From Fibrobacter sp. (GTDB lineage: Bacteria > Fibrobacterota > Fibrobacteria > Fibrobacterales > Fibrobacteraceae): a stretch of DNA of 40,137 nucleotides. This document shows, piece by piece, positions 24,221 to 30,354 of this stretch. Position 1 is the first letter of the stretch. Every line of letters begins with the position of its first letter. The translations under genes and the position numbers were made by a program. The stretch spans positions 1 to 40,137 of the forward strand of contig JAGDBD010000065.1 in NCBI GenBank assembly GCA_017959225.1, given 5' to 3'. The notes below the pieces were generated by a model, which did not search any database, had not been told where the DNA came from, and worked only from the letters and a program-made list of their open reading frames with translations.

Positions 24221-25338
24221 TGAAGATTCTCCTTCTCCATCGCAAGGACCCGCATCATCCGGATGCAGCGGAATCGGAATTTCACCTGTTCCGGATTTTT
24301 GCAAAGATCGCTTCATTTGGACATGAAGTGGTGATGCTTTCGTCTTCTTTTCGCGGGGCGGATCCCCGTGAAAACATCGACGGAGTGCAGGTCGTTCGAC
24401 GGGGAAAAGGCTTGTTTCTGTACCGCTTGGGACTAAAAAAACAGATCCGTCAGTTGAACAAGGAATTCCATTTTGACGTGGTGGTGGAAAATTTGGATGC
24501 CCGTCCGCTGCTCGTGTCGAAAAAAACGGATTTGCCTACAGCCGTGCTCGTGCGGCAGTTGTGGAAAACGGCCATATTCCGGGAAAGCCTTTCTTTGAAG
24601 GCGCTTTACATCTGGTTCTGGGAACTTTGCATTCCGAGCTATTACACCCGTTCCGAATTTATTGCCATAAGCCCTTCGGTGATGCGTGGACTTTTGAGTT
24701 TGGGAATTTCCCGAAAGAAGGTTTCGCTGGTCTATTGTGGAGCGGATCCCATTCCGGAAGCTTTTACGGAAATGCCAAAAAAGGAACGTTTCTTTTTGTG
24801 GCGGTCCTCCGAAAATCATTCGGCGGGATTAATCACTGCGCTGGATGCTTTTGAAACCTTTAGCCGTCGCCATCCGGAGATGAACTTCCTTTTGCGCATC
24901 GTCGGCAATATTCGAAAAGAGAATCGACTGCCTCATGAAATCCGTAGGCGTGGTCTTGGAGACCGGGTTCTGGTGGAATTGAATTCTTCATATGAACGGC
25001 GGATCGATTTGATGCGTAGGGCGTATTGTCTGCTCCAGACCGATCGTCAGGAAGGCTGGTGCTATTCGGCCATTGAAGCGGGGAAGTGCGGTACGACAAC
25101 GATTGCGCCGGACGATTCCGGTTATAAAGATTGCATTCGCGATGGTGTGACCGGGCTTTTGTACCCGATTGGCAAAGGCGTGGAAGGTTGCGTCAAGCAA
25201 ATGGAACACCTGATCGAAGACGAAAAACTCCGTGAAAAATTGCAGGCGAATGCAAAACGCTATGCAGATGGATTTCATTGGGGGCGTACGGCAAATGAAA
25301 TTTTAGCGGTCTTACAAAAGACCATCGAGAATCGATGA
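24220..25338 (+). CDS. Glycosyltransferase, GT4-like
   Basis: A 372-residue GT-B fold glycosyltransferase. The N-terminal half starts MKILLLHRKDPHHPDAAES, similar to GT4 enzymes, and contains SEFIAISPSVMRGLLSLGI and VSLVYCGADP at the domain junction. The C-terminal half has LLRIVGN, the nucleotide-sugar site TDRQEGWCYSAIEAGKCGT with the EX7E pair, and DGVTGLLYPIG. The donor and acceptor cannot be told. The gene overlaps the methyltransferase stop by one base and the next start by four (ATGA), so the three are translationally coupled. Confidence 0.88.
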   Translation: MKILLLHRKDPHHPDAAESEFHLFRIFAKIASFGHEVVMLSSSFRGADPRENIDGVQVVRRGKGLFLYRLGLKKQIRQLNKEFHFDVVVENLDARPLLVSKKTDLPTAVLVRQLWKTAIFRESLSLKALYIWFWELCIPSYYTRSEFIAISPSVMRGLLSLGISRKKVSLVYCGADPIPEAFTEMPKKERFFLWRSSENHSAGLITALDAFETFSRRHPEMNFLLRIVGNIRKENRLPHEIRRRGLGDRVLVELNSSYERRIDLMRRAYCLLQTDRQEGWCYSAIEAGKCGTTTIAPDDSGYKDCIRDGVTGLLYPIGKGVEGCVKQMEHLIEDEKLREKLQANAKRYADGFHWGRTANEILAVLQKTIENR

Positions 25339-26312
25339 ACAAGCCTGTGAAGTCCTTTTTGATTTTTTGCGTGAAGCTCCTAGTGACGCTTGTCCCTTGT
25401 TACTTTGTGTACAATAAAATCGTTTGTGCACCGGGTTGGGATACAGGCGATATTTGGGATTTGTTTACTGCGTCTTCGGTGCTCCCCTTGGGCATTGCTC
25501 TGGGGTGTCTTGCCCTTTCCAATTTTACGGGTTGCTTGCAATGGAAATTGCTGTTAGACAAGCAAAACGTTCATATGGGCTATTGGCATTTGGTGAAGCT
25601 CTATTTTGTGGGTCTGTTCTTTAACAATTTTATGCCGGGAAATGTGGGTGGCGACGTGAAGAAAGTGTACGATGTCCGCATGCAGGGGGACCAGCAGACG
25701 GTGGGCGGAGGCCTTACTGCGACTTTCTTTGATCGCCTTTTTGGGCTTTTCTTTTTAAATGTCCTTGCACTGGCTGTCGGTGCGCTGTTTTTTATTCGGG
25801 ATCCGAATCAGCGGTTGTTTTTGCTCCCTTCGTTTTGGGTGTTTGTGGGCTTTTGCGTTTTGTTTGCAGGCCTTTTTAGCAAGCGCATTGGACGCCTTCT
25901 CGCTTGGGTGTCGAACAAAGTTTTTCCCCGTTCGGTGCAGGAACGTTTTTTGCATTTCCAGGAACGTTTTCAGCTCTATCGCAATTGGAGGCTTTGGTTT
26001 CACATTACAGTCCTTTCGGCGGTGACCCAAAGCCTTCGGGTTGTTGTACACTTTTTTTGCGGAATTGCCGTTGGCCTTGAAATCGATGTTTCGTGGTATT
26101 TCTTCTTTATTCCCATGATTTCGGTGATCAGCGCCCTTCCGATTTCGATCGGGGGCTTTGGCCCGCGAGAACTTTTGGCCCAGTCCCTTTTTGAACGCAT
26201 CGGTGTGCCGGGATTGCAATCGGTGGTGGTGCAGCTTCTCGCTTATATGGTGAGCCTGGTGGTGAGCCTTGTGGGTGCGGTTTTCTTTTTGACAGAAAAG
26301 AAAAAGGGTTAA
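25335..26312 (+). CDS. Flippase-like integral membrane protein (lysylphosphatidylglycerol synthase TM / UPF0104 family)
   Basis: A 325-residue protein of about eight membrane helices. The family hallmarks are FNNFMPGNVGGDVKKVYDVRM around residue 95-115, GGGLTATFFDRLFGLFFLN, and the late ISALPISIGGFGPRELL. Members of this family (the membrane half of MprF and AglD-type proteins) are linked to moving or modifying lipid-linked substrates. Coupling with the glycosyltransferase suggests it handles the glycolipid made there. ATG 25335 overlaps the previous stop; a weak ribosome site is in the end of the previous gene. Confidence 0.85.
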   Translation: MNKPVKSFLIFCVKLLVTLVPCYFVYNKIVCAPGWDTGDIWDLFTASSVLPLGIALGCLALSNFTGCLQWKLLLDKQNVHMGYWHLVKLYFVGLFFNNFMPGNVGGDVKKVYDVRMQGDQQTVGGGLTATFFDRLFGLFFLNVLALAVGALFFIRDPNQRLFLLPSFWVFVGFCVLFAGLFSKRIGRLLAWVSNKVFPRSVQERFLHFQERFQLYRNWRLWFHITVLSAVTQSLRVVVHFFCGIAVGLEIDVSWYFFFIPMISVISALPISIGGFGPRELLAQSLFERIGVPGLQSVVVQLLAYMVSLVVSLVGAVFFLTEKKKG

Positions 26313-26395
26313 TTTTCTCCATTTCCCCGTTTCGAACGTCTTCTCTTTAGAAGGTTTTGAATCGTGAATTCAAAAACCGAAAAAGGAGATGCGTT

Positions 26396-28570
26396 TTGAT
26401 AGTGAAAGCGAATATGGAAAGTGAAATTTTAAAAGGGCTGAACAGCGATCAAAAATCGGCGGTCCTTTTTGATCATCAAAAAAATGGCCCCCTTTTGATT
26501 CTTGCTGCGGCGGGTTCAGGTAAAACTTCTGTTTTGACCAGGCGCATTCAATGGCGCGTTTTGCAAGGCGCAAAGCCGGAGTCGATTCTTGCTCTGACTT
26601 TCACGGCGAAAGCCGCAGCCGAAATGCGGGAACGGGTCCAAAAGCTTTTTCCGAATGCGGATATTCGCTTGAGCACGTTCCATTCCCTTGCCTACTCCAT
26701 TCTGCGAGAAAAATTCGGCGAAAAATTTGGCTGGGAACTGGTTGGTTTTTTAAAAGCGCCTAAACCTGGAGAAGGGGAATGTGAACACTTTGCCTGTGAA
26801 CTGGTGGATCATCACGTTTTGCCGAATGCGATTCCCCGGGATGATCTTTTTAAACCGGATCTTCCTTGTAAGCTTTGCAAAAAACTGGAACCGATTCGCC
26901 AAGGGGTTTTCAAAACGGGGAATATCGTTTTTGAAGATCTGATTTACCTGTCTACGGAATTGATAGAAAAAAATCTTACCGTGCAGAAAGAAATCCGAAG
27001 TCGTTTCAAGGAAGTTCTCGTGGATGAATATCAAGACATTAACCCTTCGCAATACAAGCTTGTCCGGGCGATCCTTGGAAATAACGAGAACCTCTTTGCC
27101 GTAGGCGACGACGATCAAGCGATATACGGATTTCGCGGAGCGGACATTGGGAACGTTTTCCGGTTTTGCAAGGATTTTCCGAGGGCAAAACTTTTGCGCT
27201 TAGAATGGAATTACCGCTCGGTTCCCAAAGTCCTTTATTTGGCAAATAACATTTTTAACGAAAAGCCTTTACTACTCCGCAAAACACTGCGTGCAGGGAA
27301 CAATTCTTTAAAACCGATTTTTTTGGAAAACCGCGACCCGGAACTTTGGGAAAGCGAAGATCCCCAAACCGAAATCCTTCGAATCGTTTCTAAAATCAAA
27401 GAACTTCGGGAGGCTTACGATCTGGAATTCAAAAATTTCGCCATTCTGGTCCGTTATAATCGGCAACGTTTGTACTACGAAGAAGCTCTTGAAAGTTTCC
27501 GGATTCCGATTTTTCGGGAAGAAACTGCCGAATCTCCAGAAGTTCCCGGTGTGCATGTAGAAACCGTTCACGGTTCTAAAGGATTGCAGTATACGGTGGT
27601 CTTTTACGCAGGACTTTCGGAACGTCTTACCCCAGGGGAATGTATGGGTTCCCGAAAACAGAAAAAAATACAATTAGAAGAAGAAAAACGTCTGTTTTAC
27701 GTCGGTGTGACCCGTGCAGAGGCAGTGCTCATTTTGCTATATTGTAAAAAACGTTTTTGGAAGGGCCGCCTTTCTGAATTTAAGCCATCGCGCTTTTTGC
27801 GCTATTTGGATAGGCCTGTCCCGGAGAAGTCTCATATGCCATTGATTCTGTTTAAAATCCGCGTTGTCATTTTGGTTTTGGGATATATGATGTTCGTGAT
27901 GCCGCCTTTTTTGTTCCGCTGCGTGTTTATGCGGAAGACAATCTCTGCGTGGGTGGAAAGCCGCGTCCAGGCGTTTACGAAGTTTTGCTTCAAGGTGCTT
28001 CGGGTTCATATCGATGTGGAAAACCAGTCAGCGCTTTCCCGCGTGGATTGGAACCGCCCGGTTTTTGTGGTGGGCAATCATCAGTCCTATTTCGATATTC
28101 CCATCGTTTTTTGGACACTGGGACGCTCCATCGGTTTCTTTGCCAAAAAAGAACTGACTTACATTCCCTTTTTGAATTTTTGGATGAAAGCTTTGCACTG
28201 CGTGATTGTGGATAGGAACAATTCCAAGGCATGCGTTGCCATTAAGGACCGCTTGGAATCTTCCCATGAAACCGCCCGGGTTTTTATTTTCCCGGAAGGA
28301 ACCCGCAGCAAGGACGGAACCGTCAAGCCGTTCAAAAGCGGAGCATTTAGACTTGCAACGGATTTGAATGCGATCATTCTCCCGATTTACATTCAGGGCT
28401 CTCGTTCCACATGGGAAACCCGTAAAGATTCTAACCGGGTCGTTGTGCGTTCAACGGTCATGGAACCTATCGATCTGAAGGTTCTTTCTGCCGAAAAGCC
28501 CATTAACCCGAAGACGGAACTTGTGCCTCTCGTTTACGAAAAGTTCCAGCAGATCGCTGCAAAACAGTAA
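26396..28570 (+). CDS. UvrD-type helicase fused in frame to PlsC-type 1-acylglycerol-3-phosphate acyltransferase
   Basis: One uninterrupted frame of 724 codons joins two unrelated enzymes. Residues 1-~475 are an SF1 helicase: AAAGSGKTSVLTRR (motif I), LTFTAKAAAEM (Ia), VDEYQDIN (II), VGDDDQAIYGFRGAD (III), WNYRS (IV), VETVHGSKGLQ (V), YVGVTRAEA (VI). The 2B subdomain is nearly absent, and four cysteines sit in the 1B region (CEHFAC, CKLC). From Met481 (27836) a complete 244-residue acyltransferase follows: a membrane segment, NHQSYFD (NHx4D) and FPEGTRSKDG. GGAG at 27823-27826 is 9 bases before that Met, so the acyltransferase may also be made alone. The start is TTG 26396 with AGGAG 7 bases upstream; an earlier TTG at 26357 lacks one. 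A terminator follows. Confidence 0.85.
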   Translation: MIVKANMESEILKGLNSDQKSAVLFDHQKNGPLLILAAAGSGKTSVLTRRIQWRVLQGAKPESILALTFTAKAAAEMRERVQKLFPNADIRLSTFHSLAYSILREKFGEKFGWELVGFLKAPKPGEGECEHFACELVDHHVLPNAIPRDDLFKPDLPCKLCKKLEPIRQGVFKTGNIVFEDLIYLSTELIEKNLTVQKEIRSRFKEVLVDEYQDINPSQYKLVRAILGNNENLFAVGDDDQAIYGFRGADIGNVFRFCKDFPRAKLLRLEWNYRSVPKVLYLANNIFNEKPLLLRKTLRAGNNSLKPIFLENRDPELWESEDPQTEILRIVSKIKELREAYDLEFKNFAILVRYNRQRLYYEEALESFRIPIFREETAESPEVPGVHVETVHGSKGLQYTVVFYAGLSERLTPGECMGSRKQKKIQLEEEKRLFYVGVTRAEAVLILLYCKKRFWKGRLSEFKPSRFLRYLDRPVPEKSHMPLILFKIRVVILVLGYMMFVMPPFLFRCVFMRKTISAWVESRVQAFTKFCFKVLRVHIDVENQSALSRVDWNRPVFVVGNHQSYFDIPIVFWTLGRSIGFFAKKELTYIPFLNFWMKALHCVIVDRNNSKACVAIKDRLESSHETARVFIFPEGTRSKDGTVKPFKSGAFRLATDLNAIILPIYIQGSRSTWETRKDSNRVVVRSTVMEPIDLKVLSAEKPINPKTELVPLVYEKFQQIAAKQ

Positions 28571-28875: not shown

Positions 28876-30354
28876 ATGTTGATAGATAATGTAATTCGGT
28901 TGGAGGACGCCTCACAGGGCCTGTGGGATTCAGTCCTTTCTTCTTTGCGAAGCTCGCTCTCGGCGAACTCTTTCGACATGTGGTTCGGCAAGAAGAACTT
29001 GACCCTGGATTGCATTGAAAATGGCTGTGCAAAGCTTGTGGCTGCAAACGAACTTGTGGCCACATGGATCAACGGTCAGTTCAAAAATGTCCTTTTAGAA
29101 GCGTTTAAGCAGGCAGATTCCGAAATCACGGATTACACGATTTCGGTTTCTACAAACAGCAAGGCTTCCCAGGTGATGATCATGTCCACGGAAGTGGCCG
29201 ATGAAGCCGAAATGGAAAAGCCTGTTGTCCGCAGACCGATGGTCAGCCGCGAAGAAAAACTGCAATTGGCAGAAAATGCGGCGACCCTTTCTACGTTCTA
29301 CCCGGATTATTCTTTTGAAAGCTTTGTAGAAGGCGATTCGAACCGGATTGCACTTGCCATGTGCCGTTCCATTGCGGAAAACCCCATGGAATGCTCCATG
29401 AATCCGTTCTTCCTTTTCGGTGGACCGGGAGTTGGCAAAACTCATTTGTTGCAGTCGATTGGCCGCTATGCGATTACATATAGCACGGCGTCCCGTGTGG
29501 TTTTCCGCACGGCGGAACAGTTCTTAAAAGACTATATGCGCACGCAGGATCCAAACGTTTCTCGCTTGGACCGGATGGAAGCCGTTGCAAAGCTTCGCGA
29601 AACTTATGAAGATCCGCAGCTTTTGCTGATCGATGATATTCAGGTGATTGCCGGCATCGGTCATGGTGCAACGGAAAAAGCTTTGTTCCAGGTGCTTCAA
29701 AAGCGTGTTTCTGCAAAACGCCAGACCGTTTTTTGCGCCGACCGCCGCCCCACGGAAATTCCGAATCTTTACGAAGGCTTTACCCGTTTTGACGGCAATA
29801 GCATAGCTGTGGATGTTCCGGATTTTTTGACGCGTTTGAACATTCTCCGCAAAAGGGCGAATGCCTTGCAGATTCCCACAGAAGAACGGGACCGCATTTT
29901 CCGTTGGGTTGCACAGCACCAGCGTGGAAATGTACGAGAAATCATCGGGGTCGTGACAAAGCTTATCGCTTACCACGATCTGCTGGGTGTGAACCTGACT
30001 TTGGACACCTTCAAGGAACTTTGCGAATCTTCGAACGTAATTGCACCTTCGGAAGTCGCAGATAAACCCATCCCGACTATCTCTTCCATTAAAGACGTGG
30101 TGGCGAACGCTTACCATGTTTCTGTGGATTCCCTGCGGGCCAATACCCGAGTCAAAACGGTGTCGATTCCGCGTAAAGTGGCAATGTATTTCTGCCGGGA
30201 ACTGACCAAGGAATCCCTGTTGAGCATCGGCTTCCAATTTGGCCGTGACTATTCCACGGTCATTGCAAGCATCAAGTCCGTGGAACGGGATATGCGGCAC
30301 GATCCGGACTTTGCATCCAAGGTTCAAAATATTCGGGAATCTTTTTCCATCTAG
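28876..30354 (+). CDS. dnaA: Chromosomal replication initiator DnaA
   Basis: The 492-residue protein has all DnaA domains: domain I (LWDSVLSSLRSSLSANSFDMWF, ~17-38), a short linker, the AAA+ domain III with FGGPGVGKTHLLQSI (Walker A 182-189) and LLIDDIQVI (Walker B, ~250-258), and domain IV (~400-470) with RKVAMYFCRELTKESLLSIG and the signature GRDYSTVIASIKSVE. The signature normally reads DHTTV; here DYSTV (458-462) places Tyr where a DNA-contacting His is usual. No ribosome site is seen before ATG 28876. dnaN and recF do not follow; pilin genes do. A divergent paralogue cannot be ruled out, but the complete domain set favours the true initiator. Confidence 0.9.
   Translation: MLIDNVIRLEDASQGLWDSVLSSLRSSLSANSFDMWFGKKNLTLDCIENGCAKLVAANELVATWINGQFKNVLLEAFKQADSEITDYTISVSTNSKASQVMIMSTEVADEAEMEKPVVRRPMVSREEKLQLAENAATLSTFYPDYSFESFVEGDSNRIALAMCRSIAENPMECSMNPFFLFGGPGVGKTHLLQSIGRYAITYSTASRVVFRTAEQFLKDYMRTQDPNVSRLDRMEAVAKLRETYEDPQLLLIDDIQVIAGIGHGATEKALFQVLQKRVSAKRQTVFCADRRPTEIPNLYEGFTRFDGNSIAVDVPDFLTRLNILRKRANALQIPTEERDRIFRWVAQHQRGNVREIIGVVTKLIAYHDLLGVNLTLDTFKELCESSNVIAPSEVADKPIPTISSIKDVVANAYHVSVDSLRANTRVKTVSIPRKVAMYFCRELTKESLLSIGFQFGRDYSTVIASIKSVERDMRHDPDFASKVQNIRESFSI

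Follow-up and report, generated by a model that had tools for sequence, protein, structure and literature searches.

A Helicase-Acyltransferase Fusion Conserved across the Fibrobacter Family with a Retained Internal Start and, Probably, Two Products

How a DNA helicase and a phospholipid acyltransferase come to share a single reading frame, and whether that frame gives one protein or two, are questions raised by a locus in a 40,137-nucleotide stretch of DNA deposited as Fibrobacter sp. (assembly GCA_017959225.1, contig JAGDBD010000065.1), the whole of which is called the window here. A first-pass annotation had offered three readings: a true bifunctional protein, the loss of the stop codon between two neighboring genes, or two products from one frame. 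Comparison with related genomes favors two products, arising through the loss of a stop codon, because the fusion is conserved, the joint is free of stops and frameshifts in 108 loci, and the internal start has been kept.

Two Enzymes in One Frame

The features of the fused gene are as follows.

26414..28570, + strand: fused ORF of helicase, linker and acyltransferase; 718 aa from ATG 26414, 724 aa from TTG 26396
26414..27799, + strand: helicase half, of a short SF1A type; carries AGSGKT, DEYQD, GDDDQAIYGFRGAD, NYRS, T(V/I)HxSKGLQ and EE(K/R)RLFYVGVTRAE
27800..27835, + strand: linker of 12 codons, from the conserved SRFL to the internal ATG; unconserved in sequence, always in frame
27823..27826, + strand: GGAG, Shine-Dalgarno-like, 9 nt 5' of ATG 27836; duplex energy -6.6 kcal/mol
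27836..28570, + strand: complete PlsC-type acyltransferase, 244 aa from ATG 27836; NHQSYFD (HX4D) and FPEGTRS
27842..27997, + strand: two long helices predicted in an AlphaFold2 model (residues 483-511 and 513-534), opening the acyltransferase half

In the window sequence, a single stop-free frame runs from 26357/26396 to a TAA ending at 28570, and Pfam places three domains on the one protein, UvrD-helicase (2e-59), UvrD_C (2.5e-26), and Acyltransferase (1.4e-27, residues 539-666), so that the joining of the two enzymes in one frame, as first annotated, is borne out. The frame had been taken to begin at 26396. It is indeed open throughout, but the alignment of the orthologues begins at ATG 26414, which makes this codon a more likely start for the full ORF than TTG 26396. 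A short out-of-frame ORF of 11 codons (ATG CGT TTT ... TGA) also lies in this region, at 26389-26424 on the + strand, with AAAAAGGAG immediately 5' of it. Because it ends just within the region where the helicase begins (ATG 26414), it could encode a leader peptide whose translation is coupled to that of the helicase.

The helicase half has the Walker A motif, the DExx-box, and motifs III-VI of the SF1A UvrD/PcrA-like enzymes, with PF00580 and PF13361 both above cut-off. Its likeness to PcrA, UvrD, and Rep lies in these motifs and in the alignment of both RecA-like cores with PcrA (1pjr), the aligned pieces being residues 6-103, 180-377, and 550-642. Between 377 and 550 the alignment jumps, and a PcrA stretch of ~170 residues (~378-549), which holds the 2B subdomain, is missing. 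Unlike these three enzymes, the fused ORF lacks the 2B segment, has a PlsC attached, and scores far under the NCBIfam equivalog cut-offs (pcrA, 298 of 911 bits; uvrD, 258 of 1144; rep, 278 of 951), which places it outside the PcrA, UvrD, and Rep equivalogs. The helicase of the fused ORF is an extra one, since the genome of the window encodes two other UvrD-like proteins (C59, 824-aa frame; C65, 716 aa) along with a helicase-like protein of greater size (C27, 1196 aa). The helicase half encoded in the window also has a cluster of Cys and His residues, which was considered as a feature and dropped; it is not kept even in the related genome G002.

The description of the 3' part as a complete PlsC-type acyltransferase also holds. 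PF01553 scores 96.5 bits against a cut-off of 23, the HX4D and FPEG motifs are kept in 22 aligned rows of orthologues, and the half aligns with chain residues 14-231 of the 247 in structure 5kym, the PlsC of Thermotoga maritima (11-235 with a profile). With HX4D, FPEG, and the acyltransferase domain all present, it can be assigned from its sequence to the PlsC/LPAAT acyltransferases, and it resembles PlsC (1-acylglycerol-3-phosphate acyltransferase; 5kym, TIGR00530) in these motifs and in a near full-length alignment. It is unlike known PlsC enzymes in being encoded at the 3' end of an ORF that begins with a helicase and in its TIGR00530 score, which in the genome of the window is 98.2-102.5 bits, depending on the stretch scored, against a curated cut-off of 102.95. 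The fused orthologues of G014, G007, G005, G001, G011, and G013 pass this cut-off; those of G009, G015, G008, G012, G002, G006, and G010 do not reach it. In the AlphaFold2 model of the fused protein (mean pLDDT 85.4, pTM 0.75), the acyltransferase half opens with the two long helices, which may have a membrane role, as in solved PlsC structures. As the 50 Foldseek matches listed for the whole model are all helicase-type chains, it is from sequence and from the model itself that this half is identified as an acyltransferase.

Conservation of the Fusion

Matches to the fused protein at E<=1e-100 occur in 110 of the 111 genomes searched from the family that contains Fibrobacter (f1), and all 108 loci that span the junction are fused and open, across 11 genera: 80 in g2 (taken as Fibrobacter), 12 in g6, 4 in g1 (the genus of the window), 3 each in g4 and g5, and 1 in each of six other genera. 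G003 and G020 are left out of the 108, their contigs ending before the joint, and in G069 the match is in two pieces with the frame nevertheless open. The sole genome without a match, G004, is 98% complete; a search with the acyltransferase half found distant paralogues only and no helicase orthologue is listed, so that the fused gene is missing from this assembly. Across a 33-row alignment selected from the 108 loci, the helicase motif residues and the acyltransferase catalytic residues are invariant.

The first-pass annotation had called for such a comparison of orthologues and had named, as cases against a fusion, related genomes in which the genes are always separate and a stop or frameshift at the joint. 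What the comparison returned is a fusion in 108 of 108 junction-spanning loci and throughout the family, with neither a stop nor a frameshift at any joint. Because 110 of the 111 genomes match, chance and misassembly are excluded. The genome of the window is a 130-contig assembly, but nothing was found in favor of an assembly or sequencing artefact, or of a recent stop loss in one strain; the same ORF in those 110 genomes, including the single-contig G002, leaves either explanation a negligible probability, and both are rejected. Between the window and G002, the helicase half has dN 0.075 and dS 1.58 and the acyltransferase half dN 0.081 and dS 1.23, with dS near saturation; two further pairs gave no dS value for some of their halves. 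On these ratios, both halves are under purifying selection.

Outside the family, among the matches listed at E<=1e-60 in 167 genomes of the phylum, the matching region ends in or just past the helicase part. Of 80 loci from named genomes, the 3 from Fibrobacter are fused and 77 are without such an acyltransferase within flanks of <=3 kb; none of 20 further loci from the phylum has one in its flanks. Among plasmids, no record has a region covering 80% of the query.

Genomic Neighbors

Two genes flank the fused ORF in the window.

25335-26312, + strand: LPG_synthase_TM-family membrane protein, upstream gene; present as a neighbor at 30 of the 38 loci tested
28876-30354, + strand: dnaA, downstream of the fused gene; a neighbor in the g1 genomes tested and in G014 (g10)

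The upstream neighbor lies on the same strand as the fused gene in 33 of 35 loci. For dnaA, there is no match in the flanks of the other loci tested, including those of Fibrobacter, and G011 has a weak partial match near the fused gene (25.5% identity, E 6e-7). The DnaA neighbor was considered as a clue to a role in replication and set aside, its adjacency being limited to the g1 genomes tested and G014. At two loci (L010 in G001, L011 in G005), the fused gene lies in the opposite orientation over its full length, still flanked by the LPG_synthase_TM-like gene and dnaA; the inversion is seen in two of the four genomes of the window's genus, the reference orientation being that of L009 (G002) and of the window. 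As it is inverted whole between the same neighbors, the fused gene moves as one unit.

Probable Origin from Separate Genes

The helicase matches listed outside the family are stand-alone frames, mostly of ~500-550 residues. In six genomes of genus g15, from family f3 of the same class, the orthologous acyltransferase lies directly 3' of the helicase in another frame, and in all six the helicase stop and the inferred acyltransferase start share bases (GTGA in 3, ATGA in 2, and a 7-base overlap in 1). Gene pairs with overlapping stop and start are typical of translational coupling. An overlapping pair of this kind, followed by a change of frame, would lead to the fused state with the downstream start left in place. 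The earlier statement that nothing known links the two activities stands as far as the literature goes, no report joining UvrD helicase and PlsC acyltransferase activities having been found in the open-licence papers searched, but a genomic link does exist in the neighboring genes of g15.

A tree of 45 acyltransferases, which includes 18 of the 108 fused ones, groups the fused enzymes with the stand-alone copy of G039 (family f5; support 99/96), and this group joins the f3 copies (support 88/81). The two f2 copies fall instead with a second PlsC that several members of the Fibrobacter family also have. In G039 both orthologues are present on different contigs, and the two sister-family genomes have the helicase without this acyltransferase beside it. 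The adjacency of the two genes may be either ancestral with losses or of repeated origin.

A Putative Gene Start inside an Open Frame

The internal ATG at 27836, put forward from the window alone, is confirmed: it is in frame, has GGAG exactly 9 bases upstream, and would give a product of 244 residues. Among relatives, the linker before it measures 10-13, 16, 21, 25, or 29 codons, the frame being kept in all, and the residues between the halves (471-482) have no regular secondary structure in the AlphaFold2 model. At the joint, conservation jumps, with entropies of 2.7-3.5 bits at linker positions -10 to -1, 0.54 at the Met, and 0.21 at the next Pro. A start codon stands at the joint or one codon on in 108 of 108 loci; the aligned position is ATG in 100, GTG in 3, and TTG in 2, and the remaining 3 loci have ATG or GTG one codon later. 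Replacement of this Met is by GTG or TTG in 5 of 5 cases versus 9 of 47 at other mostly-Met columns (Fisher p=8e-4; p=2e-5 if all eight non-ATG joint loci are counted, 8/8 versus 9/47), p values that overstate the significance because the rows are related.

Outside Fibrobacter, Shine-Dalgarno-like pairing at <= -4 kcal/mol is found at 27 of 28 joints; among the remaining internal ATGs of those genera, the share that pairs as well is 0-25%. The genus-averaged duplex energy is -6.19 at the joint versus -1.35 over all columns, ranking 6 of 701; of the five columns that outrank it, three are found 58-60 columns before the joint and the other two close to the N terminus, and we read them as conserved protein stretches. 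Much of the site in genus g6 would follow from the amino acids alone (Gly/Lys), and single-locus tests against synonymous recoding are mostly non-significant (p 0.02-0.79). In Fibrobacter itself the site is weak, reaching -4 kcal/mol in 12 of 80 loci (15%), no better than at other internal ATGs; native ORF starts in these genomes pair weakly too (38% at <= -4, the first ATG of each frame being used as its start by rule). The Fibrobacter joint is instead AT-rich and unstructured, with a GC content of 0.359 versus 0.468 in synonymous recodings (p=9e-15) and an MFE of -4.24 versus -6.63, and nowhere else in the ORF does synonymous AT enrichment go deeper, columns +1 to +3 ranking 1-3 and the joint 4 of 704. 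These values (0.36/-4.2) are close to those of ORF starts (0.37/-4.87) and unlike those of internal ATGs (0.51/-8.29), both references being sampled from one Fibrobacter genome. No synonymous AT dip is seen at the joint outside Fibrobacter and g6. By these sequence measures, the joint carries the signature of a gene start, a conserved start codon with initiation context inside one ORF; some of the conservation of its Met-Pro could stem from constraints on the protein.

This signature weighs on the simplest reading of the locus, that of a single product, a true bifunctional helicase-acyltransferase whose start-like joint is the fossil of a formerly separate gene. Such a protein would fit a joint that is open in 108 of 108 loci, linker-length changes that always keep the frame, and the weak Shine-Dalgarno site of Fibrobacter. 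A fossil start should, however, have decayed at 45-58% identity, yet none of the 108 loci is without a start codon, and one or other initiation feature, an SD-like site or a synonymous AT dip, has been kept, so that a single product is quite improbable.

Two Probable Products from One ORF

The fusion is conserved in the family and its downstream start is kept, and the ORF probably gives both a long helicase-PlsC and a 244-residue PlsC; the production of both proteins, their enzyme activities, and any membrane tethering are inferred. The ancestral neighbors would have been translationally coupled, the helicase stop overlapping the acyltransferase start, until the pair was brought into one frame and the helicase stop was lost, with the acyltransferase start codon and its ribosome-binding region remaining under selection after the fusion. 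Initiation at 26414 followed by read-through would then yield the 718-residue helicase-PlsC, and initiation at 27836 the free 244-residue PlsC. The free enzyme would carry out the ordinary second acylation in phosphatidic-acid synthesis in an amount uncoupled from the helicase. In the long form, the PlsC half would tether an SF1A helicase to the membrane. As no stop exists, every ribosome that completes the helicase must go on to make the long form.

Whether the long form matters in itself is a separate issue. Two products might be made and the fusion itself still be a neutral by-product of the lost stop, perhaps cut by a protease at the linker, if all that counts is the activity of the helicase and the PlsC in its free form. 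A linker that is unconserved and modeled without regular structure is in keeping with this, as are the persistence of the start signals and a related family served by separate genes. A fast-changing linker should, however, gain stops or frameshifts, whereas the several linker lengths (10-29 codons) are all in frame; in a crude test, shuffled linkers stay open with a probability of 0.31-0.71 per genus, the product over 11 genera being 6e-4. The test suggests that read-through is useful rather than neutral, and the neutral by-product is correspondingly unlikely. A tentative and rather doubtful extension of the two-product reading is that the long form is a purposeful membrane-anchored helicase at sites of phospholipid synthesis, linking a DNA transaction (repair, segregation, or uptake at the envelope) to membrane growth, with the short form as bulk PlsC and the ratio set by the internal start.

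The acyltransferase complement of the genus of the window bears on the free enzyme. The six g1 genomes have no second acyltransferase above 72 bits (TIGR00530), and the fused one scores 98.8-107.5 bits in the four genomes in which this part is assembled. In G014 all other acyltransferases score <=65 bits, and G006 to G013 and G015 have a second, unfused copy at 100-111 bits. The fused ORF may supply the main PlsC in g1, which would explain a need for translation independent of the helicase. Two large adjoining ORFs (1142- and 1179-aa frames; L265 and L266 on G000:C112), each with a PlsC-like domain, are also found, and such pairs recur in further genomes of the window's genus.

Relation to Known Genes within Genes

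In-frame genes within genes are a known class of mechanism; the enzyme pair, its fixation across a family, and the separate-gene state in relatives are new to us. According to one report (PMC11899642), the C-terminal part of the cas8/cas10d ORF in type I-B, I-C, and I-D CRISPR systems is also translated, as Cas11, so that a long and a short product arise. The likeness to the fused gene lies in a large ORF with an in-frame internal start; both products there, unlike the two unrelated enzymes described here from sequence, belong to one CRISPR effector system. Similarly, a study of the Rpn proteins (PMC10327210) describes an in-frame internal start that gives the C-terminal product RpnS besides full-length RpnL, which RpnS inhibits. 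A C-terminal product from an in-frame internal start is what is proposed for the fused ORF, but, unlike RpnS, it would be a metabolic enzyme in full, equipped with catalytic motifs of its own.

Across the Fibrobacter family, in 11 genera, two enzymes without a known common task have thus been joined while the start of the second was kept. The locus would be a clean natural case of two overlapping genes merging into a single ORF that gives two products, and relatives still show the genes apart. If the locus is annotated as one protein, an enzyme that may be the chief phospholipid acyltransferase of the window's genus is overlooked. The fusion also makes the idea of a membrane-bound helicase directly testable.
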